NCBI GenBank assembly: GCA_016187935.1
Contig: JACPIU010000026.1
Span: 124,001 to 188,000, forward strand
Direction: 5' to 3'
Source: Bdellovibrio sp.
GTDB lineage: Bacteria; Bdellovibrionota; Bacteriovoracia; Bacteriovoracales; Bacteriovoracaceae
DNA length: 64,000 bases
Position numbers and translations under genes: made by a program. The first letter of the stretch is position 1. The number at the start of each line of letters is the position of its first letter. Positions 40,112-55,989 of the stretch are shown one piece after another. The notes under the pieces were generated by a model that was not told where the DNA came from, made no database searches, and saw only the letters and a program-made list of their open reading frames with translations.

Positions 40112-40546
40112 CTAGTGCTTATTGTTCGCAGCAGCAAACTCTTTGGCTATCTGGATACGGAGATGAGCGCGTTCAATTTTTCTTGTGTATTTCACAAACT
40201 CATCTGGAGTAAGTGTCATTGTATCAAGCTTTTCCTGAGCAAAGGCAAGTGCCCGTTCAGCACGCTCTTGGCTGATTTCATGCTGCTCTTCAGACACGTT
40301 AGAAAGTATTGTGATTTTTTTGCCAAGTACTTTACAAATTCCGGTCGTTATTGAGAAATGCCGGTCAGGATCATCCTCTGCTCCCATGATTGAAAGCATT
40401 CCGGTATCCAGCTTTGCAATTATGTGCGTATGCTCCGGCAGAATATTGATCTCACCGCGTATAGTAGGGACAAAGAGAGATTCTGCAGGAATATTTCTAC
40501 CAAGAACTCTATACGGGGTAAGCACATCAACCATGAAGTAATTCAT
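40112..40546 (-). CDS. atpC: ATP synthase epsilon subunit
   Basis: Part of the central stalk of F1; couples rotation to catalysis and can inhibit hydrolysis. The 144 residues have the N-terminal beta sandwich (VPTIRGEINILPEHTHIIAKL) and a C-terminal two-helix arm (ERAERALAFAQEKLD, RKIERAHLRIQIA). It starts 9 bp after the atpD stop codon and ends the atp operon. An ATG four codons in (MVDVLTPYRV) is a possible alternative start. Confidence 0.93.
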   Translation of the reverse strand: MNYFMVDVLTPYRVLGRNIPAESLFVPTIRGEINILPEHTHIIAKLDTGMLSIMGAEDDPDRHFSITTGICKVLGKKITILSNVSEEQHEISQERAERALAFAQEKLDTMTLTPDEFVKYTRKIERAHLRIQIAKEFAAANNKH

Positions 40547-46044: not shown

Positions 46045-46380
46045 TTAAGTATCATCGCGCATCCTGGTTGTGCCGTGAAAAATCACACCTTCTTCCACTA
46101 TTAATGAAGGAGTTGTAATTGTCCCTTCAAATCTCGCTGATTTTAGAATTTCCACTCGTGAGCTAGCACGGACATTTCCTCTGACAGTTCCTGAAATCAA
46201 AATGACGTTTGCATTAATGTCAGCATTAATCACAGCAGATTCAGAGATGATAATGGAATCATTAGAATAAATTGTGCCATCGACGATACCAGCGATTCTG
46301 GCGACGCCGCTAAAAGACAAATTACCCTCAAATCGACAACCTTCTTCGATAATCGCAATAACACTACTTTGAACTTGCAT
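46045..46380 (-). CDS. Bactofilin
   Basis: A 111-residue polymer-forming cytoskeletal protein. Nearly the whole length is a right-handed beta-helix with hydrophobic repeats of about 17-18 residues (CRFEGNLSFSGVARIAG, then IYSNDSIIISESAVINA, then VILISGTVRGNVRASSRVEI), the bactofilin core, with very short tails. Its start shares one base with the parB stop codon (TAATG), so it is translationally coupled to parB. In Myxococcus xanthus, bactofilins encoded beside ParAB scaffold the partition system; a similar role here is inference. Confidence 0.9.
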   Translation of the reverse strand: MQVQSSVIAIIEEGCRFEGNLSFSGVARIAGIVDGTIYSNDSIIISESAVINADINANVILISGTVRGNVRASSRVEILKSARFEGTITTPSLIVEEGVIFHGTTRMRDDT

Positions 46381-47300
46381 TACTTTCTGCTCGCAAAAAA
46401 GTTATAAATTTCATTTAACTCTGCTTCATTGCTAAATACAAGCCCAATGTGCCCTGCTCCGCTTTTGTTGACTTTTATTTTAATCTGAAGCCCCGATTTT
46501 TGCTCTATTGCTTGCCTAATTGAATCATATTTCGCCATATTTTGGTGAGTGACTTCATTAAGACTAGCGTCTTTATCAATTTTTTTTGTTTTACTCTGCT
46601 CCTCAAGCATTCTAACTGACCATTGCTCCGCAAGGGCCTTACTGGCGAGTCGAATCACTTCTTCTCGATCTTCAATACCAGCAAGGATTTTGCCATGTCC
46701 AAAAGATAACTGATCTTTTTGTAAAAATTCGATAACATTTCTAGGTAGTTTTAAAATTCTTAAATAATTTGAAACCGCAGAACGGTCTTTGCCTAATCTT
46801 TTAGCAACTTCTTCCTGGGTTAATTGAAAATCATTCATGAGTTGGTAATAAGCAAGTGCCTCTTCAACACAATTCAAATCTGCGCGCTGGATATTTTCAA
46901 GGAGTGCAATAATATTTCTTTCTCGGTCTGTAGCACTTCTTACAATGGCGGGGATATACTCAATACCCGCTTTTTTAGCTGCTCTCAAACGTCTTTCACC
47001 AGCAATGAGTTCAAAACCAGTATCGACTTTTCTCACAATGATAGGTTGAATGATGCCGTTTTCTTTAATCGATTGTGCAAGTTCTTCAAGCTCTTTTTCT
47101 TTAAATATTTTTCTCGGTTGTCCAGGATTTGCTTTCACTGCTTCAATGGGTATCATGAGCGGGCCAGATTCAACTTTTTCCTTCATAACGACTTCTGGTC
47201 TTTCATCATTACTATCCAGGAGGTTGTTCGCATGGATTGCTTTTGGTACTTCCTGGATCAGAGACGCAATTCCTTTTCCAAGGACTAATTTTTTTGCCAT
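46380..47300 (-). CDS. parB: Chromosome partition protein ParB
   Basis: Binds parS, loads as a CTP-dependent clamp and spreads to build the partition complex. The 306 residues include the N-terminal ParA-contact part (LGKGIASLI), the CTP-binding core (PGQPRKIF, GFELIAGERRLRAAKKAG, ALLENIQRADLNCVEEA), the helix-turn-helix (LTQEEVAKRLGKDRSAVSNYLR, here shown as two overlapping halves in the family) and the dimerising C-terminus. AGGAG lies seven bases before the ATG. It follows parA after 10 bp. Two parS-like sites lie upstream, in and beside rsmG/mnmG. Confidence 0.97.
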   Translation of the reverse strand: MAKKLVLGKGIASLIQEVPKAIHANNLLDSNDERPEVVMKEKVESGPLMIPIEAVKANPGQPRKIFKEKELEELAQSIKENGIIQPIIVRKVDTGFELIAGERRLRAAKKAGIEYIPAIVRSATDRERNIIALLENIQRADLNCVEEALAYYQLMNDFQLTQEEVAKRLGKDRSAVSNYLRILKLPRNVIEFLQKDQLSFGHGKILAGIEDREEVIRLASKALAEQWSVRMLEEQSKTKKIDKDASLNEVTHQNMAKYDSIRQAIEQKSGLQIKIKVNKSGAGHIGLVFSNEAELNEIYNFFASRK

Positions 47301-47310
47301 TGTTCACTCC

Positions 47311-48117
47311 TCACGATAAATAATTCGTCTCTGTCGTTGTTTGTACTGACATTCTTTGTCTAATAATTAATTCTTTTGCCAAGCTTAAATAAGCCTCACT
47401 ACCTTTTGACTCAATGTCATAAAGAATTATAGGCTTTCCAAAACTCGGGCATTCGGACAATTTCACATTTCGTGGTACTACAGTTGAGAAAACTTTATCT
47501 GCAAAATGAGTTTGAATCTCACTGGCGACCTGCTTATGAAGATTGGCCCGAGCATCGAACATGGTGAGAAGTATGCCCTCCATTTCAAGATTAGGATTAA
47601 TTGAATTCCTTATCAATCTCACGGTATTTAACAACTGCGCAAAACCCTCCATTGCAAAATACTCTGTTTGCATTGGAACAATGAAGCTATCAGATGCATT
47701 AAGTGCATTAACTGTCAAAAGTCCCAAGGACGGTGGACAATCTATAATGATGAAATCAAATTTATCTCTAATTGTTGCAAGAGCACTTTTCAATTTGCTC
47801 TCGCGCGCAAGTTCGCTTACTAACTCAATCTCCGCTCCAATCAAATTGTTATCAGCAGGGCATACATGCAAAAAAGGTAGTTCTGTAGAATACATGACTT
47901 CTTTGATCGGACATTCTCCAATGAGTGCATGATACAAATTTTTATTTTTATAGCTTTCACTATTGAGTCCAAGACCAACGCTGGCGTTTCCTTGAGGATC
48001 AAGATCTAAAAGAAGTGTTCGTTTTTCCGCAACAGATAAACATGCCGCTAAATTGATCGCAGATGTAGTTTTACCAACGCCGCCTTTTTGATTTACCATC
48101 GCAATAATTTTAGACAT
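47311..48117 (-). CDS. parA: Chromosome partition ATPase ParA (Soj)
   Basis: ATP-dependent DNA-binding protein that moves ParB-parS complexes and so segregates origins. The 268 residues have the deviant Walker A KGGVGKTTSAINLA, the LDLDPQGNAS motif, Walker B in FIIIDCPPSLGLLT and the C-terminal VPRNVKLSECPSFGKP, which is typical of chromosomal Soj/ParA. AAGG lies eight bases before the ATG. It sits between rsmG and parB, the classic origin-proximal order. Confidence 0.97.
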   Translation of the reverse strand: MSKIIAMVNQKGGVGKTTSAINLAACLSVAEKRTLLLDLDPQGNASVGLGLNSESYKNKNLYHALIGECPIKEVMYSTELPFLHVCPADNNLIGAEIELVSELARESKLKSALATIRDKFDFIIIDCPPSLGLLTVNALNASDSFIVPMQTEYFAMEGFAQLLNTVRLIRNSINPNLEMEGILLTMFDARANLHKQVASEIQTHFADKVFSTVVPRNVKLSECPSFGKPIILYDIESKGSEAYLSLAKELIIRQRMSVQTTTETNYLS

Positions 48118-48142: not shown

Positions 48143-48784
48143 CTACTCTAAAATTAATTCAGAAAGTTTGACAAGACTTTTATTGCTGAATGTTCCACGT
48201 GGAACATTATGATAAAGCAGAGTCGCTCTGTTGGACTGATCAGGAAGTTTGTACTCAAAGATTTCACTCAATGACCAGCTCGGATTCACAAAAGCAAGCT
48301 CCTCACTAAACGATGGACCCTTATAAAAAAGGACTGAGACATCACATTCCTGAGCAACATTAATAAACGGTAGCAGATCTTCAATTCTTCCAACCGCCTT
48401 GAAAGTGATCAAAGCGTCGCGATCTATAAGAATCTTCTCAACTCGATTGTTAATCAACGTTATATTTGCTAGTCCAAGAGAATCCTTGATCTGTCCACAG
48501 GCCCTAACCTTCTTACCGATTGACTCAATCCCGATGACTCGCTCTTCGCTGAATTCGATAGCAAGAGGAAAAAGGGGGAAACCACCACCAAAGCCTACAT
48601 CCACAATTAAGTGATGTCTGCCAATTATCTCGCTGAGTTTCGATGAACGTCTCATTGGTATCACAGAATCGAGAACCTGCTTATTAAAAATATCCTCACG
48701 ATTAAGAATTCTTGTTAAATTCAGACCTTTAAGGGGGCCATTTAATAAAGCAAGATAGCGATCAGTAAAAATATCCAAATTCAA
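48143..48784 (-). CDS. rsmG: 16S rRNA (guanine-N7)-methyltransferase RsmG
   Basis: Methylates G527 of 16S rRNA using S-adenosylmethionine. The 213 residues have the SAM-binding VDVGFGGGFPLFPLAI and IGIESIGKKVRAC motifs, and NRVEKI further on. The start is TTG at 48784, which overlaps the mnmG stop codon (TTGA); no ATG in range fits better. The segment NVPRGT near the C-terminus is encoded by an embedded parS site, so this gene doubles as partition DNA. Confidence 0.93.
   Translation of the reverse strand: MNLDIFTDRYLALLNGPLKGLNLTRILNREDIFNKQVLDSVIPMRRSSKLSEIIGRHHLIVDVGFGGGFPLFPLAIEFSEERVIGIESIGKKVRACGQIKDSLGLANITLINNRVEKILIDRDALITFKAVGRIEDLLPFINVAQECDVSVLFYKGPSFSEELAFVNPSWSLSEIFEYKLPDQSNRATLLYHNVPRGTFSNKSLVKLSELILE
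48191..48206. promoter_or_regulatory. parS site inside rsmG
   Basis: TGTTCCACGTGGAACA is a perfect palindrome that differs from the common TGTTTCACGTGAAACA by one symmetric base pair per half. This variant is known to act as parS in several bacteria. It is read in frame as Asn-Val-Pro-Arg-Gly-Thr in RsmG and lies about 7.8 kb from the likely oriC. Confidence 0.9.
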
Positions 48785-50625
48785 GTTAATAATCCCGCGA
48801 CATAGGACAACGTTGCTGGTCGAATTCCCTCTATACGTTGCAGTTGATAGAAATTTTCAGGCATAAATTTTCCAATTCTCTGCCGACACTCATAAGAAAT
48901 ATTTTTATTCATCATGAGAGACTTCCAATCGACCGCGCGAACTTTAAGTTTTGCAAATCTACTATTCGTCTCATAATCACGAGAAATATGGCCCTCATAT
49001 TTGATCATTATAGCTACAGCTGCAACAACTCTCTCTGAAATAGATATCCCGATTCGATTGATCTCATCTTGTAACACCTTAATAGGATTAAATTCTGGCC
49101 TCTTTAGCAGATCAGAAATCCCTAGTGGCGCATCTAAAATACCATAATCAGAAATTTCACGGGAAATACTAATTTTATGTACAAGAGACTCGAGAAATTC
49201 AAATTCATCCAAGAGTCCATTTAAGCGAAAATCGAAGGAATTATTCAACTTAATCTGCCGGCGATACTTGCTCATGCGAATGAAAGCATTATCCTCTCTT
49301 AAAAAAAGTCGATTCTCACTTCTCGCAGTGAAGAGTCTGTACGGTTCATCACGCTGGGATGAAACAAGATCATCAATCATGACTCCAATATATGAATCAG
49401 CGCGATCGAAGAAAATCAATTCTCGCTTTTGGGCCCTTAAGGCAGCATTTAATCCTGCGACTAAACCCTGACCTGCAGCCTCCTCATAGCCAGAAGTTCC
49501 ATTAATCTGTCCTGCAAAGAATAGGCCGGAAATCTCACGATGCTCGAGACCATGATTAAGAGTAGAAGTATCGACAACGTCATATTCAACAGCATAACCA
49601 TATTGAAAAATTTCGACGGCCTCAAGGCCAGAAATTGTGCGCAAGAAACTCTCTTGCACATCTTTAGGAAGACTCGTAGATATTCCACTTGGATAGATGC
49701 TCTCTGTAGATAACCCCTCGGGCTCTAGAAAAATCTGATGACTGTCTCTATCTAAATATCTAAAGGCCTTATCCTCAAGAGAGGGGCAATATCGCGGGCC
49801 TATGCCAACAATTTGTCCATTAAAGAGAGGACTACGGTGCTTATTCTCACGGATAATCGATAAGGTCTTCTCATTTGTTCTGGTCAAATAACAGGCAATT
49901 TGCGGTAGGTTCCGCGCACGGCCGGGAGTAAAAAGATGAAAAGCAGAAGCTAACGAATCAGAGTGCTGAGGCACTAACGAAGTAAAATCTATTGAAGAAC
50001 GCTGCAAGCGTGGCGGAGTTCCTGTCTTAAAGCGGATATCCCTAAATCTTAAAAAAGGAACAACCTTCTGAAGGCCCGCTGAACTCTGACAATCATAACG
50101 TCCACCACTCCAACTCTCAGGCCCTGTATGCAGCAAGCCTCCTAAAAAGGTTCCCGCTGTAACAACAACACACCTTGCGAAGAGAGATTCGTGATCGCTG
50201 AGAAAAATTTGAAAAACATCATTTGCACTACGCTCGATTGACTGGACTGCGCAATAGCGCAAGGAAAATCCTGGAATCCCGACTAGGGTCTGATATGCAT
50301 ATTGAGAGTAAAGCTCTTTATCAATTTGAACTCTTGTCGATTGCACTGCAAATCCCTTCGATTCATTTAGAGTGCGAAAGTGAATTCCAGCGCGATCAGC
50401 AAGGATCCCCATTAGACCACCCATCGCATCAAGCTCACGAACGACTTGGCCTTTCCCCACGCCTCCGATCGATGAATTGCATGGTGCGCTAGCGATCGGC
50501 ACCTCGGGAAAAGATAAAAGACAGATGCGAAGCTCACTGAACTGTGAAGCCATCCAAGCAGCTTCAACACCAGCATGCCCACCACCAATGATACAAACAT
50601 CAAAATGATTCAAAAGTGCACTCAA
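48781..50625 (-). CDS. mnmG: tRNA uridine-5-carboxymethylaminomethyl modification enzyme MnmG (GidA)
   Basis: With MnmE, modifies U34 of certain tRNAs using FAD and folate. The 614 residues have the FAD site IGGGHAGVEAAWMASQF, SCNSSIGG-like PCNSSIGGVGKGQVVRELDA (shown as PCNSSIGGVGKG), KTGTPPRL, PRYCPSLEDK, EPEGLSTESIYPSGISTSLP and NGTSGYEEAAGQG. The motifs are normal. It follows mnmE with a 65-bp gap that holds the second parS, and it is coupled by a 4-bp overlap to rsmG. Confidence 0.97.
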   Translation of the reverse strand: MSALLNHFDVCIIGGGHAGVEAAWMASQFSELRICLLSFPEVPIASAPCNSSIGGVGKGQVVRELDAMGGLMGILADRAGIHFRTLNESKGFAVQSTRVQIDKELYSQYAYQTLVGIPGFSLRYCAVQSIERSANDVFQIFLSDHESLFARCVVVTAGTFLGGLLHTGPESWSGGRYDCQSSAGLQKVVPFLRFRDIRFKTGTPPRLQRSSIDFTSLVPQHSDSLASAFHLFTPGRARNLPQIACYLTRTNEKTLSIIRENKHRSPLFNGQIVGIGPRYCPSLEDKAFRYLDRDSHQIFLEPEGLSTESIYPSGISTSLPKDVQESFLRTISGLEAVEIFQYGYAVEYDVVDTSTLNHGLEHREISGLFFAGQINGTSGYEEAAGQGLVAGLNAALRAQKRELIFFDRADSYIGVMIDDLVSSQRDEPYRLFTARSENRLFLREDNAFIRMSKYRRQIKLNNSFDFRLNGLLDEFEFLESLVHKISISREISDYGILDAPLGISDLLKRPEFNPIKVLQDEINRIGISISERVVAAVAIMIKYEGHISRDYETNSRFAKLKVRAVDWKSLMMNKNISYECRQRIGKFMPENFYQLQRIEGIRPATLSYVAGLLT

Positions 50626-50637
50626 AATATTGCCCTA

Positions 50638-50653
50638 TGTTCCACGTGGAACA
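50638..50653. promoter_or_regulatory. parS site between mnmE and mnmG
   Basis: A second exact copy of TGTTCCACGTGGAACA, 12 bp upstream of the mnmG start codon and about 5.4 kb from oriC. ParB bound here could also affect mnmG transcription, as the site lies in the mnmE-mnmG gap. Confidence 0.9.
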
Positions 50654-50690: not shown

Positions 50691-52172
50691 CTACTTTCCT
50701 ATGCAAAACTTAGAAAAGATCAAGTCAAGAGAATCCTCGGGAATAACAACCCCTATTAACTCGCTCACAACTATACCTAAGGATTCAATATTATTAGACA
50801 ATATACCGAGATCTGTACAACCATCAAGCGAAGGAAGTGATATGTATCTATCGTAAATAGCTGATATTACATATTTATGACGATCAACTAAAATGGGATT
50901 CTTGTCTACTATTGAACGATATTTTGAAATAACTAACTCATTGAAAACACGTCTAAGATCGCTATTATCTGGTCCTATAGAACCATCCCTCAAATTCACT
51001 GCACCTAAAATTTTGTAATTAAATAGTGCTGGTTCTATAGGACCACTGATCTGCTGATCTGGTCCTATAGAACCAAGGCCATTTTGAATCGGGCCAATTA
51101 ACAAAATTGGACACTCATATCTCTGAGAAAAGGCCATTAACTGTGTATTAGAAAATGAATGAAGCTCGTAATGAGTCACTAGAAGCAAATCAAAATCAAA
51201 AGATTCACAAAATGCCGCCTCAATATCTAAAGCAGATAGTACCAAAATCTTGAAAAAAGAGTCACGGAGTAATGATTGAGAGCGACGAATGCCCTCCTCC
51301 TCAATAACGTTTTCGGCAAAATCTCGAACGCCTGCAGAGTCCGTAAAAATAAACAAATCACCATCAATCTCAATATTTTCAGAAATAAAATCACGAGTTG
51401 TTCCAGCGATTGAACTCACAATTGATCTATTTTCAGAAAGGATAAAATTAAAAAAAGTACTCTTCCCTGCATTTGTGGGACCAAAAATTAAGATACGAGG
51501 AACACGAGCAGCAGGTGCTTGAATTGATGCGCGATGATACAGATCAGAAATTACAACACCAAAATTTCGCATAGAAATCGCAAGAAGGGATTTCGCCTCA
51601 AGTTCACCGACATCCTCAGAAAAATCAATTAAAAGATTTAAGGCGGATTTAATAGCAATAAACTCATCATAAAGCTTACGGTAAGAACGGAATAAATCAC
51701 CATTGAGAATCTGCAATCCCTGATTGAAAGCAAAATGTGAGTTAGCATTAAGAAGTAACTCAAGGCCTTCCACTTGTGAAAAACTCAATTTCTTATTGTT
51801 TAACGCTCTAAAAGTAAACTCACCGGGCCCGGCCTGTCTTAATCCAAAGTTTTTAATAAATGCACTAATAATTCTCCGAACATTTAAAACATTACCGTGC
51901 GGATAAAGTTCCAAAATATCTTCACCTGAGTAGCTATTAGGACTCTGAAAAAAACAAAACAAAAGATCATCAAGAATAATGCCATTATCTATGATTCTAC
52001 TTAAATACATTTTCCGAGGAGCAACATTGCTGAGGGGCCTAAAAAATATTGTTTGAAATTTTTCGAGAGAAAAAAAACCACTTATGCGAACTACTGAGAT
52101 GGCAGAATTTGCAATACTCCCACTACTACATCCGATAATAATATCATTTTGTGAGCTATTGCTTATCGCCAT
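50691..52172 (-). CDS. mnmE: tRNA modification GTPase MnmE (TrmE), divergent G domain
   Basis: Partner of MnmG in U34 modification. The 493 residues keep the folate-binding N-terminal domain (SPNSYSGEDILELYPHG, RQAGPGEFTFRALNNKKLSF), G1 GPTNAGKST, G2 AGTTRD, G3 DSAGVRD and the essential C-terminal CIGK. The G4 motif NKxD, which reads guanine, is not recognisable: the expected strand reads LLLVTHYEL (Thr333 to Glu336). The G5 region is also unusual and contains an insert with three copies of a 16-bp near-palindrome. The enzyme may still work with MnmG, but its nucleotide specificity is in doubt. It follows yidC with a 9-bp gap. Confidence 0.92.
   Translation of the reverse strand: MAISNSSQNDIIIGCSSGSIANSAISVVRISGFFSLEKFQTIFFRPLSNVAPRKMYLSRIIDNGIILDDLLFCFFQSPNSYSGEDILELYPHGNVLNVRRIISAFIKNFGLRQAGPGEFTFRALNNKKLSFSQVEGLELLLNANSHFAFNQGLQILNGDLFRSYRKLYDEFIAIKSALNLLIDFSEDVGELEAKSLLAISMRNFGVVISDLYHRASIQAPAARVPRILIFGPTNAGKSTFFNFILSENRSIVSSIAGTTRDFISENIEIDGDLFIFTDSAGVRDFAENVIEEEGIRRSQSLLRDSFFKILVLSALDIEAAFCESFDFDLLLVTHYELHSFSNTQLMAFSQRYECPILLIGPIQNGLGSIGPDQQISGPIEPALFNYKILGAVNLRDGSIGPDNSDLRRVFNELVISKYRSIVDKNPILVDRHKYVISAIYDRYISLPSLDGCTDLGILSNNIESLGIVVSELIGVVIPEDSLDLIFSKFCIGK
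50970..51075. repeat. Three copies of a 16-bp near-palindrome inside mnmE
   Basis: TGGTCCTATAGAACCA occurs at 50970-50985 and 51060-51075, and its exact reverse complement TGGTTCTATAGGACCA at 51030-51045. The last two form a perfect 16-bp hairpin with a 14-nt loop. All three are in frame and code for Ser-Ile-Gly-Pro-Asp or Gly-Pro-Ile-Glu-Pro stretches in the G5 region. I saw no further copy elsewhere in the window by eye. Confidence 0.9.
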
Positions 52173-54175: not shown

Positions 54176-54213
54176 AAAAATCTCCGAAACGACGCTTGCT
54201 TTCTAAACCTCGA

Positions 54214-54242
54214 CTTTTACCCTTTAGGACTTTAAAAATCAA
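54214..54242 (-). promoter_or_regulatory. Candidate promoter of rpmH-rnpA-yidC
   Basis: On the minus strand TTGATT (54237-54242) and TAAAAG (54214-54219) are spaced 17 bp apart, about 40 bp before the rpmH start. Only four of six bases match at each box, so this is weak. Confidence 0.35.
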
Positions 54243-54298
54243 GACTTATAAAAGCACTTCATTATATCAAAAAAATTTCAGACAACTACCTTTCAAAA

Positions 54299-54314
54299 AA
54301 CACTTATTAGTGTT
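54299..54314. promoter_or_regulatory. Short hairpin in the dnaA leader
   Basis: AACACT-tatt-AGTGTT, a 6-bp stem with a 4-nt loop, lies 47 bp upstream of the dnaA start. It could be an operator or leader hairpin. No DnaA box with at most one mismatch was noticed in this 185-bp rpmH-dnaA gap. Confidence 0.25.
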
Positions 54315-54360
54315 ACAGAATCCGTCCACCATTATGCTTCTTTTTAGGGGTTTGGAATTT

Positions 54361-55989
54361 ATGTCAAGCGAATTCCCGTTTGATCATTTTTTAAAAAAAA
54401 ACCATCCGAGCAAGCTTTTTTCAAATCCACAGATCAATGCTTCACCAGACCTAAAGGTCAATGAAAATGATGACATTGGAGAACTTAAAGAGCTTGAAAA
54501 TGAAATCCTTGGACTCCTTAGAGACTCTATTCCAAAGCAAAAGTTTAATGCCTACTTTGAAAATACTTTTGAAATTATTTCATTTGAAGGCAACCAAATC
54601 GTCTTCTCATGTTCAACGCAATTTATACAGCACATTATAACAAGTCAGTATCTTGTCCATATCGAAAATGCAATTTTTGCAACGATAGGTAAAAAGGTGA
54701 TTATTGATATCCAAGTTAGGTCTAAAAATACGAGTCTAAGTTCTAATGATAAAAACATCTTCAGAACGCAAAATTCTACCGCTCTGCTTTCTAATGAAAA
54801 AAATACAGAAACTACAAAATCCTCTATTAAAAAACCAGGGGATTTTAAATTTGTTCTGGATCTAAATCAAACATCAGACGATTTAACAAAGGTTGCTGAA
54901 TCTAAGTTTTTATCACATGTTCGTTCTGATATGGGGAACATATTGATTGATGCTAGTAAAACTTTCGATAATTTTATAGTTGGGAATTCCAATGCCATAG
55001 CCCACGCAACAGCAATTGCCGTTGCTAATGAACCAAGTCGCCAAGGAAAACAATGCAAATATCAATGCCTCTATATTCATAGCGGTTCAGGACTAGGTAA
55101 GACTCACCTTCTTCATGCCATAGCTAATAAAGTGAAAGAACTTTACCCAAACCTTGTTGTTGCACTGGTCACTGCACGAGACTTTACTAAAGAGATGGTT
55201 AATTCAATTCACGATAAAACAATGCCTGACTTTCAAAAAAAATATTCAGAGATTGTCGACATTCTTATGGTCGATGATATTCACGAACTGAGGAACAAGC
55301 CAGCAACACAAAATGAATTTTTTCACATTTTTAACGAATTACAGAACAGAGGTAAACAGCTAGTTTTTACCAGTGATAAATTACCTTCTGAAATTGATGG
55401 AATCCCTGAGAGACTCATGACCCGTCTTCAGTGGGGGCTTTTGATCGATATTCAACGCCCCGATTACGAGACGCGCCTGGCTATTTTAAAGCGGAAATCT
55501 GCAGAACTGGATCTATACTTACAAGAAGATATTTTTCAGCTAATGGCTTCAAATCTTACACATAGTATCCGCGAATTAGAAGGTTATTTAATCCGTCTAT
55601 CGGCCCATAAGGATCTGTTAAAAGTTGAAATAGATATAGAGATGGCAAAGGAAGTGCTAAACCTAACTTCAAAACCACGTGAAGAAAAACTTAGCGCGGA
55701 GACAATTTCTAAAGTCGTTGCTAATTTTTATAAAATACCCGTCATTGATATCAGATCGAAATCACGAACCAAGAAGATTACCCATTCTAGACATGTTGCA
55801 ATGTATTTAATTCAAAAGCACTTAAATGCAACACTTGCTGAAATTGGTGCATTTTTTGGAGGTCGAGATCACACTTCTGTTATTCATGGCATAAAAAAGA
55901 TTGAACAGGAAATCCAATTAAGTGGTTTTGTAAAACAAGAAATCAACGGACTCGAAAGTGCTCTTTCAGAGCAAAGCGAAATTTTCTAG
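54361..55989 (+). CDS. dnaA: Chromosomal replication initiator DnaA
   Basis: Binds DnaA boxes and melts the origin. From the chosen ATG it has 542 residues: domain I (ENEILGLLRDSIPKQKFNAY), a loose linker (about 130-195), the AAA+ domain with Walker A HSGSGLGKTHLL and Walker B ILMVDDIHEL (normally DDIQF), and domain IV with the DNA-reading GGRDHTSVIHGIKKIE. The frame is open 165 bp further upstream, but that part is unlike DnaA. The ATG at 54361 follows GGA by six bases and gives the normal N-terminus, apart from about 40 extra residues (SSEFPFDHFLKKN...) before domain I. Confidence 0.96.
   Translation: MSSEFPFDHFLKKNHPSKLFSNPQINASPDLKVNENDDIGELKELENEILGLLRDSIPKQKFNAYFENTFEIISFEGNQIVFSCSTQFIQHIITSQYLVHIENAIFATIGKKVIIDIQVRSKNTSLSSNDKNIFRTQNSTALLSNEKNTETTKSSIKKPGDFKFVLDLNQTSDDLTKVAESKFLSHVRSDMGNILIDASKTFDNFIVGNSNAIAHATAIAVANEPSRQGKQCKYQCLYIHSGSGLGKTHLLHAIANKVKELYPNLVVALVTARDFTKEMVNSIHDKTMPDFQKKYSEIVDILMVDDIHELRNKPATQNEFFHIFNELQNRGKQLVFTSDKLPSEIDGIPERLMTRLQWGLLIDIQRPDYETRLAILKRKSAELDLYLQEDIFQLMASNLTHSIRELEGYLIRLSAHKDLLKVEIDIEMAKEVLNLTSKPREEKLSAETISKVVANFYKIPVIDIRSKSRTKKITHSRHVAMYLIQKHLNATLAEIGAFFGGRDHTSVIHGIKKIEQEIQLSGFVKQEINGLESALSEQSEIF

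Follow-up and report, generated by a model that had tools for sequence, protein, structure and literature searches.

A family-specific array of parS-like 16-mers beside the replication origin of Bacteriovoracaceae

The canonical parS site follows the consensus TGTTYCACGTGRAACA, and Rickettsia palindromic elements (RPE) are palindromes carried in frame within protein genes and spread through many of them. Noc, a ParB paralogue, has a distinct 16-bp site (NBS) in the same genome as ParB and parS, and NBS are scattered around the chromosome according to the available part of the published work (PMC4331003). For Bdellovibrio bacteriovorus, the accessible text of the relevant account describes one ParA/ParB and two parS sites, identical and near oriC (PMC10547168). 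Here we describe, from the same phylum, an array of 16-mers in Bacteriovoracaceae, termed class-2 sites, that resembles each of these systems in part.

Like parS, class-2 sites are 16-bp dyads near oriC (taking the dnaA–parAB region as the origin), lie in and between genes of the same neighbourhood and have the TGNTYC part of the half-site in common. They do not follow TGTTYCACGTGRAACA: their halves differ from those of parS at T3 (to G), A7 (to T, C or G) and C8 (to A), counting the first T as 1, and a second half-site type, TGCCCC, occurs. They form dense arrays at 24–30 bp spacing that coexist with true parS, TGGTYCNATNGRACCA being present in 1–12 copies per genome that has it (17 in G046) as against one or two parS in nine genomes. 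In contrast to the scattered NBS of the source text (PMC4331003), class-2 sites stay beside origin genes; no NBS-like scatter was found, the window's genome holding the mnmE cluster only and seven relatives holding their strict-form sites on one contig within 21 kb. ParB2, our candidate binder, has Noc and Spo0J as its best solved relatives; it differs from Noc in having its own ParA, in failing the Noc model and in lacking the QKKR contact set. As for the ParABS system of B. bacteriovorus, genomes of the phylum outside the family are, with one exception in 193, without class-2 sites and without ParB2 (0 of 193). RPE likewise show palindromic DNA tolerated in frame within a protein gene, but they are spread across many genes, whereas class-2 sites keep to the neighbourhood of the origin, with no dispersed copies. 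The array, parS-like in its presumed work and in its neighbourhood, is thus neither parS by sequence nor NBS by distribution. We consider it probable that the family carries a second class of origin-proximal, parS-like docking arrays, most likely for ParB2.

Three 16-mers in mnmE and their genomic setting

The window, the whole stretch of 64,000 nucleotides analysed, carries on its minus strand the gene order rnpA–yidC–mnmE–mnmG–rsmG–parA–parB–ATP synthase genes; dnaA and dnaN lie beyond its rnpA end. The features are as follows.

40112–40546, minus strand: atpC (Pfam ATP-synt_DE_N), end of the ATP synthase genes
46380–47300, minus strand: parB, encoding ParB1 (Pfam ParB_N and HTH_ParB)
47311–48117, minus strand: parA, encoding ParA1 (Pfam AAA_31 and ParA-like matches)
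48143–48784, minus strand: rsmG (gidB)
48191–48206, plus strand: second canonical parS, TGTTCCACGTGGAACA, within rsmG
48781–50625, minus strand: mnmG
50638–50653, plus strand: canonical parS, TGTTCCACGTGGAACA, in the mnmG–mnmE gap, its start 332 bp from that of class-2 site 1
50691–52172, minus strand: mnmE (MnmE domains by Pfam)
50970–50985, plus strand: class-2 site 1, TGGTCCTATAGAACCA, in mnmE, minus-strand reading GSIGP
51030–51045, minus strand: class-2 site 2, in the opposite orientation, in mnmE, reading GPIEP
51060–51075, plus strand: class-2 site 3, in mnmE, reading GSIGP
54196–55989, plus strand: dnaA, taken as the marker of the region's oriC end (oriC position assumed)

For the mnmE product, the best NCBIfam model is MnmE, with a score below the model's cut-off. 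The three exact 16-mers in +,−,+ order that the original prediction placed inside mnmE are present at these positions, and the 16-bp hairpin that it saw in sites 2 and 3 is real in the window, with a gap of 14 nt between the arms as its loop. This hairpin is not conserved: the sister genome G002 (L160) has all three copies in the same orientation.

Allowing up to three mismatches, TGGTCCTATAGAACCA has six strand-wise matches in the window, which are the same three sites read on both strands, as against a mean of 0.49 and a maximum of 3 in 100 shuffles. The original prediction had also proposed a search of the whole genome, and this returned no copy beyond the mnmE cluster: across all 4.40 Mb there is no further exact TGGTCCTATAGAACCA outside the trio, up to two mismatches add 2 places (6 for the reversed control pattern) and the TGCCCC variant is absent. 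The two parS copies, TGTTCCACGTGGAACA, are the only genome-wide matches to TGTTCYAYRTRGAACA.

Composition, placement and distribution of class-2 sites

A class-2 site is a dyad of 8-bp half-sites, each TGGTYCNA or TGCCCCNA; the consensus is TGGTYCNATNGRACCA, with TGCCCCNA as the alternative half. We classified 491 de-duplicated sites from 85 sources (84 loci, 64 of them pre-chosen for two sites, and the window). TGGTYCNA was paired with itself in 324, with TGCCCCNA in 69, and TGCCCCNA with itself in one; the other 97 were parS/parS, and none of the 491 joined a parS half to a class-2 half. That the two class-2 half types mix freely is the pattern expected from a homodimer reading two independent halves, and the lack of parS/class-2 hybrids alongside this mixing suggests that the class-2 reader is distinct from the parS reader. 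Ordinary parS sites persist beside the class-2 sites, with one or two in each of nine genomes checked and a match with at most one mismatch in 20 of 21 origin regions (the best in L172 has two).

The placement of class-2 sites was mapped for 395 de-duplicated sites from 80 sources. The mnmE gene holds 328, distributed 324, 3 and 1 over the three frames. Of the 67 outside it, 35 lie 1–117 bp 3′ of parB, forming a second cluster directly behind the ParB1 gene in many relatives, and atpC is the nearest mapped gene for ten, six of them 28–61 bp and four 1.1–1.2 kb (up to 1229 bp) downstream; such sites downstream of atpC occur in some relatives and not in the window. The remainder are in or near dnaA, mnmG, mnmE, rsmG, parB, atpD, yidC and atpF′. 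Neighbouring sites are 24, 27 or 30 bp apart in 180 of 246 cases within mnmE, where every spacing but one is a multiple of three, and 22–31 bp apart in 18 of 22 cases between genes. Taken together, 21 origin regions (about 0.4 Mb) contain 117 class-2 sites against 0.014 expected with uniform bases.

Of the two readings offered by the original prediction, the local array of binding sites stands; the small palindromic element that had entered a gene does not. There are no dispersed copies in the window's genome, and in each of the seven relatives for which whole-genome listings with a looser pattern are complete (G004, G009, G012, G016, G023, G065 and G073) the strict half-site form is found, in genes and between them, on a single contig within 21 kb and nowhere else; looser forms have further matches elsewhere. 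Contig C1 of G004, at 3.44 Mb, is approximately the whole genome; the nine strict-form sites of G004 lie within 12.6 kb. A mobile or dispersed palindrome is rejected on this confinement beside origin genes in the window's genome and the seven relatives. Some class-2 sites lie on the far side of dnaA, such as one in G012 (C5:227410), about 10 kb beyond it. Stray single matches to the degenerate pattern on other contigs (for example, G039 C72) may be due to chance, the pattern being looser than the strict form. The 17 sites of G046 are on at least three contigs (C45, C109 and C140), two of which have a ParB1-like match, and this genome may be a mixed bin or have a duplicated origin region.

Within the family, TGGTYCNATNGRACCA was found in 119 of 129 genomes (reversed control pattern, 4 of 129) and in 71 of the 73 with completeness of 90% or more and contamination of 5% or less. 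Six of the ten genomes without it (G044, G075, G104, G117, G129 and G130) are all less than 90% complete; the other four belong to genus g5, in which G006, G134 and G135 have TGCCCC-type sites and G132 has none. Across 290 genomes sampled evenly from the phylum, the strict form TGGTYCTATAGRACCA occurs in 91 of 97 family members as against 1 of 193 others. A scan of genomes from 84,980 species for two sites 5–35 bp apart returned 64 stretches, most of them titled Bacteriovoracaceae, Halobacteriovoraceae, Bacteriovorax, Halobacteriovorax, Bacteriovoracales, Bacteriovoracia, Bdellovibrio, Bdellovibrionales or Bdellovibrionota; eight bear vaguer titles (four Oligoflexia, two Deltaproteobacteria, one ‘Epsilonproteobacteria’ and one ‘bacterium’). 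The strict motif occurs in 60 stretches of IMG/VR; gauged against an approximate figure for the size of that collection, this is in our judgement close to what chance would give. Just one of them has two copies: L293, a phage-like contig in which a collagen-like gene (1392–2825) encodes GPIGP. A phage or plasmid origin is therefore rejected, the L293 copies arising by GPIGP coding alone. A literature search for the 16-mers themselves found no paper containing them, and among the matches listed on segregation in Bacteriovorax and Halobacteriovorax, parS, ParB, MnmE and nucleoid occlusion, as far as their available text goes, there was nothing on such sites.

That the array is real, acts at the level of DNA, is bound to the origin and is specific to the family is in our view practically certain. 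We infer protein binding at the 16-mers, which are almost certainly DNA docking sites, and a role in the segregation or organisation of the origin is likely.

ParB2 and other candidate binders

Searching with the ParB HTH family gave a second, weak match in several genomes. ParB2 of the window's genome is a ParB-like protein of 283 aa adjoining a ParA, encoded as follows.

G000:C6:151923–152771 and the neighbouring gene (L180 6921–8621): ParA2/ParB2 pair, a second chromosomal pair conserved through the family

The genes after the pair are, we take it, LemA-like and M48 protease-like. At each of the 39 loci checked, some of which share a genome, ParA2 and ParB2 are neighbours, as in a second ParABS system. 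Full ParB2 matches (at least 257 bits) occur in 118 of 129 family genomes, and in the phylum sample 91 of 97 family members have ParB2, as against none of 193 others (best other score, 74.7 bits), although this co-occurrence with the sites exists only at the level of one family and many other family-specific genes would match likewise. G093, the only genome at least 90% complete in which ParB2 was not found, is rejected as a counter-example of sites without ParB2: its ParA2 is cut short where contig C53 ends, and ParB2 probably falls in the assembly gap beyond. Of five genomes of genus g5, four retain ParB2 and have no TGGTYC/TGGTYC site; three of these four have one or two TGCCCC-type sites and the fourth, G132, has none. 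Plasmid matches to ParB2 by tblastn are all below 60% identity, with none covering 80%.

ParB2 has the ParB-type fold by ParB_N (61.7 bits, cut-off 26.3) and TIGR00180 (90.8 bits, cut-off 58.45) and is borderline for HTH_ParB (20.5 and 22.7 bits, cut-off 22.6). Against the Noc model (cut-off 315) it scores 97.7 bits and ParB1 225.7 bits. It keeps the stretches ENxxR and GERRxRA, presumably the CTP-binding motifs. Residues contacting DNA were taken from the available part of PMC7383237 (R173, N178 and G201 in Caulobacter ParB; Q173, K179, K184 and R201 in Noc) and transferred through the shared (L)G-x-x-[RK] stretch, with no Caulobacter sequence in the alignment. At these transferred positions, family ParB1 keeps the equivalents of R173, N178 and G201, whereas in ParB2 Lys, Arg and Tyr occupy 173, 178 and 201, respectively, and the GHA[RK] stretch is missing; at the Noc positions, as given in that text, the window's ParB2 reads K, G, R, Y and most others K, S, K, Y in place of QKKR. 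The presumed recognition helix of ParB2, LGISKSEVHRSL, is nearly invariant in 40 sequences (several from the same genome). A nearly invariant helix with changed contacts fits a stable non-parS site, without showing which.

No class-2 or parS-like sites lie in 41 parAB2 loci (203 kb, several of the loci sharing a genome), in which the centromere of an ordinary pair would be sought. Nor was a separate ParB2 site recognised beside parAB2, the best shared palindromes being a 14-mer in 8 of 35 loci and a 10-mer in 10 of 35. In G004, parB2 is about 0.37 Mb from the class-2 sites, unlike the usual ParABS arrangement.

That ParB2 reads the class-2 sites is a tentative assignment, slightly less probable than not, and ParB2 is the most likely of the binders considered. 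We propose that the 16-mers would act as double-stranded docking sites for a dimeric DNA-binding protein; that ParB2, with its own ParA2 encoded elsewhere, would nucleate on the arrays as a CTP-dependent clamp and build a second nucleoprotein complex beside the ParB1–parS centromere; and that this complex would serve origin segregation, tethering or nucleoid-linked division control. Both the clamp loading with CTP and the cellular role of ParB2 arrays are steps that we infer.

Since the site architecture needs only a dimer and the co-distribution does not single out ParB2, the reader could instead be a different family-specific dimeric binder, such as an origin or nucleoid-occlusion factor of TetR or XRE type. 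We hold this to be unlikely, if still a serious contender, because ParB2 is a ready candidate with a fitting fold family, distribution and altered contact residues.

A further alternative, rather unlikely in our assessment, is that ParB1 binds both parS and class-2 sites, the latter being extra sites for loading or for the control of spreading. Class-2 sites lie all around parS and parB, a parS-like site is 0.3–0.9 kb away from most mnmE copies of the 21 origin regions, the TGNTYC positions are common to both half-sites, and ParB1 was found in the family genomes searched, except in incomplete G001. The census, however, holds no hybrid although class-2 halves mix, and each half differs at three positions. 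A ParB HTH match is present in 14 of 14 genomes from other families, yet the strict site is in only 1 of 193 genomes outside the family. ParB1 also keeps the R173/G201-type pair, which according to the available part of PMC7383237 goes with parS.

Selection on the DNA of the MnmE linker

MnmE homologues were found in 24 genomes of the same family and in all 14 other-family genomes searched; identity to the window's protein is 58 and 64% within the genus and 37–46% in the rest of the family. We aligned 25 of the proteins, 22 from the family (including the window's) and three from other families. After the G domain, most family members have a linker with a variable number of GPIGP, GSIGP, GPIEP, GPMGP or GSMGA-type repeats, missing in four of the 22 (L024, L027, L028 and L029; L026 is partly masked) and in the three other-family proteins aligned. 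The DNA under each repeat is approximately the same 16-mer, in flanking sequence that is not conserved, and strict copies reach 11 per mnmE gene among relatives. In an AlphaFold2 model built on an alignment of 41 family MnmE proteins, residues 362–385 and 389–403, which hold all three repeats of the window, have pLDDT below 50, and the stretch 362–403, mostly of low confidence, is flanked by better-predicted domains. This stretch is probably a disordered linker tolerant of repeats, so that an array would be able to sit in mnmE; most sites would lie there because mnmE is between dnaA and parAB and its linker accommodates GPIGP-type repeats.

Three other features of MnmE stand apart from the linker array. 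Two genomes, L167 8368 (= L013) and L023, have an extra class-2 site at residue 35, near the N terminus. In G005 (L162 11308), which lacks the linker array, a canonical parS lies within mnmE itself. NKxD is the G4 motif in the G domain of MnmE; in most family members TH or SH replaces NK (window, approximately 51165–51180), the corresponding stretch in the three other-family proteins being TKSD, SKSD and NKSD, and the GTP specificity of MnmE may, from this substitution, be altered in the family.

The repeats could be a matter of protein alone, a GPIGP-type linker with the likeness of the DNA as a by-product. One frame accounts for 324 of the 328 mnmE copies, the repeats are in a linker, and the collagen-like gene of L293 yields the same 16-mer twice by GPIGP coding. 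To avoid circularity, we selected motifs by their amino acids, G[PS][IM][GE]P, which gave 296 motifs in 69 unique mnmE genes. The base immediately before the motif is T in 291 of 296, compared with 41% for the remaining Gly codons of these genes; GGT opens 294 of 296 (37.5% elsewhere); and the Ile codon is ATA in 272 of 276 (24.8% elsewhere). Binomial P values are below 1e-100 for all three biases and are indicative only, as the sequences are related and most loci were chosen for two sites. Synonymous positions, which a protein repeat would leave free, and the preceding base are thus fixed far beyond amino-acid need, which is DNA-level selection on the motif. The same DNA recurs between genes and in other frames, and variation in the residues (S/P, I/M, G/E and P/A) follows that in the DNA half-sites. 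A protein repeat alone is rejected on the codon and flank statistics, and we rate that reading as highly improbable. The original prediction had held that a single locus with the same residues in relatives would point to protein repeats only; at face value this is nearly what was found, yet the rule misleads, because the codons and a base outside the motif are fixed at the DNA level and the same 16-mer is also present in intergenic DNA next to parB and atpC.

A structured mnmE transcript, in which single copies or inverted pairs form hairpins, is extremely improbable and is rejected despite the strong fold of the window's +,−,+ stretch (z = −4.95, 0 of 200 shuffles as good), by a mismatch bias on the sense strand (TGGTCC/TGGTTC, giving C·A, in 136 sites against TGGTTC/TGGTCC, giving G·U, in 40), by TGCCCC halves that break the stem on the left (15) and right (39), by the unconserved inverted order (L160) and by the 45 of 395 sites nearest to the 3′ side of parB or atpC.

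MnmE thus carries its GPIGP linker because the underlying DNA is under selection, a clear case of selection at the DNA level moulding a conserved protein. The array provides a testable second origin-proximal docking site across the family, including Bacteriovorax and Halobacteriovorax, together with a candidate binder; if the ParB2 assignment is true, it would be a further example in nature, alongside Noc, of a ParB paralogue gaining a new site with parS left in place. It is possible, and we advance it with caution, that two ParB-type clamps operate at a single origin in Bacteriovoracaceae: ParB1 would act on parS, and ParB2–ParA2 on an orthogonal centromere-like array that has spread into mnmE, a conserved gene for tRNA modification. 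This would amount to a layer of segregation or division control beyond ParABS and Noc, perhaps tied to the predatory multi-copy growth cycle.
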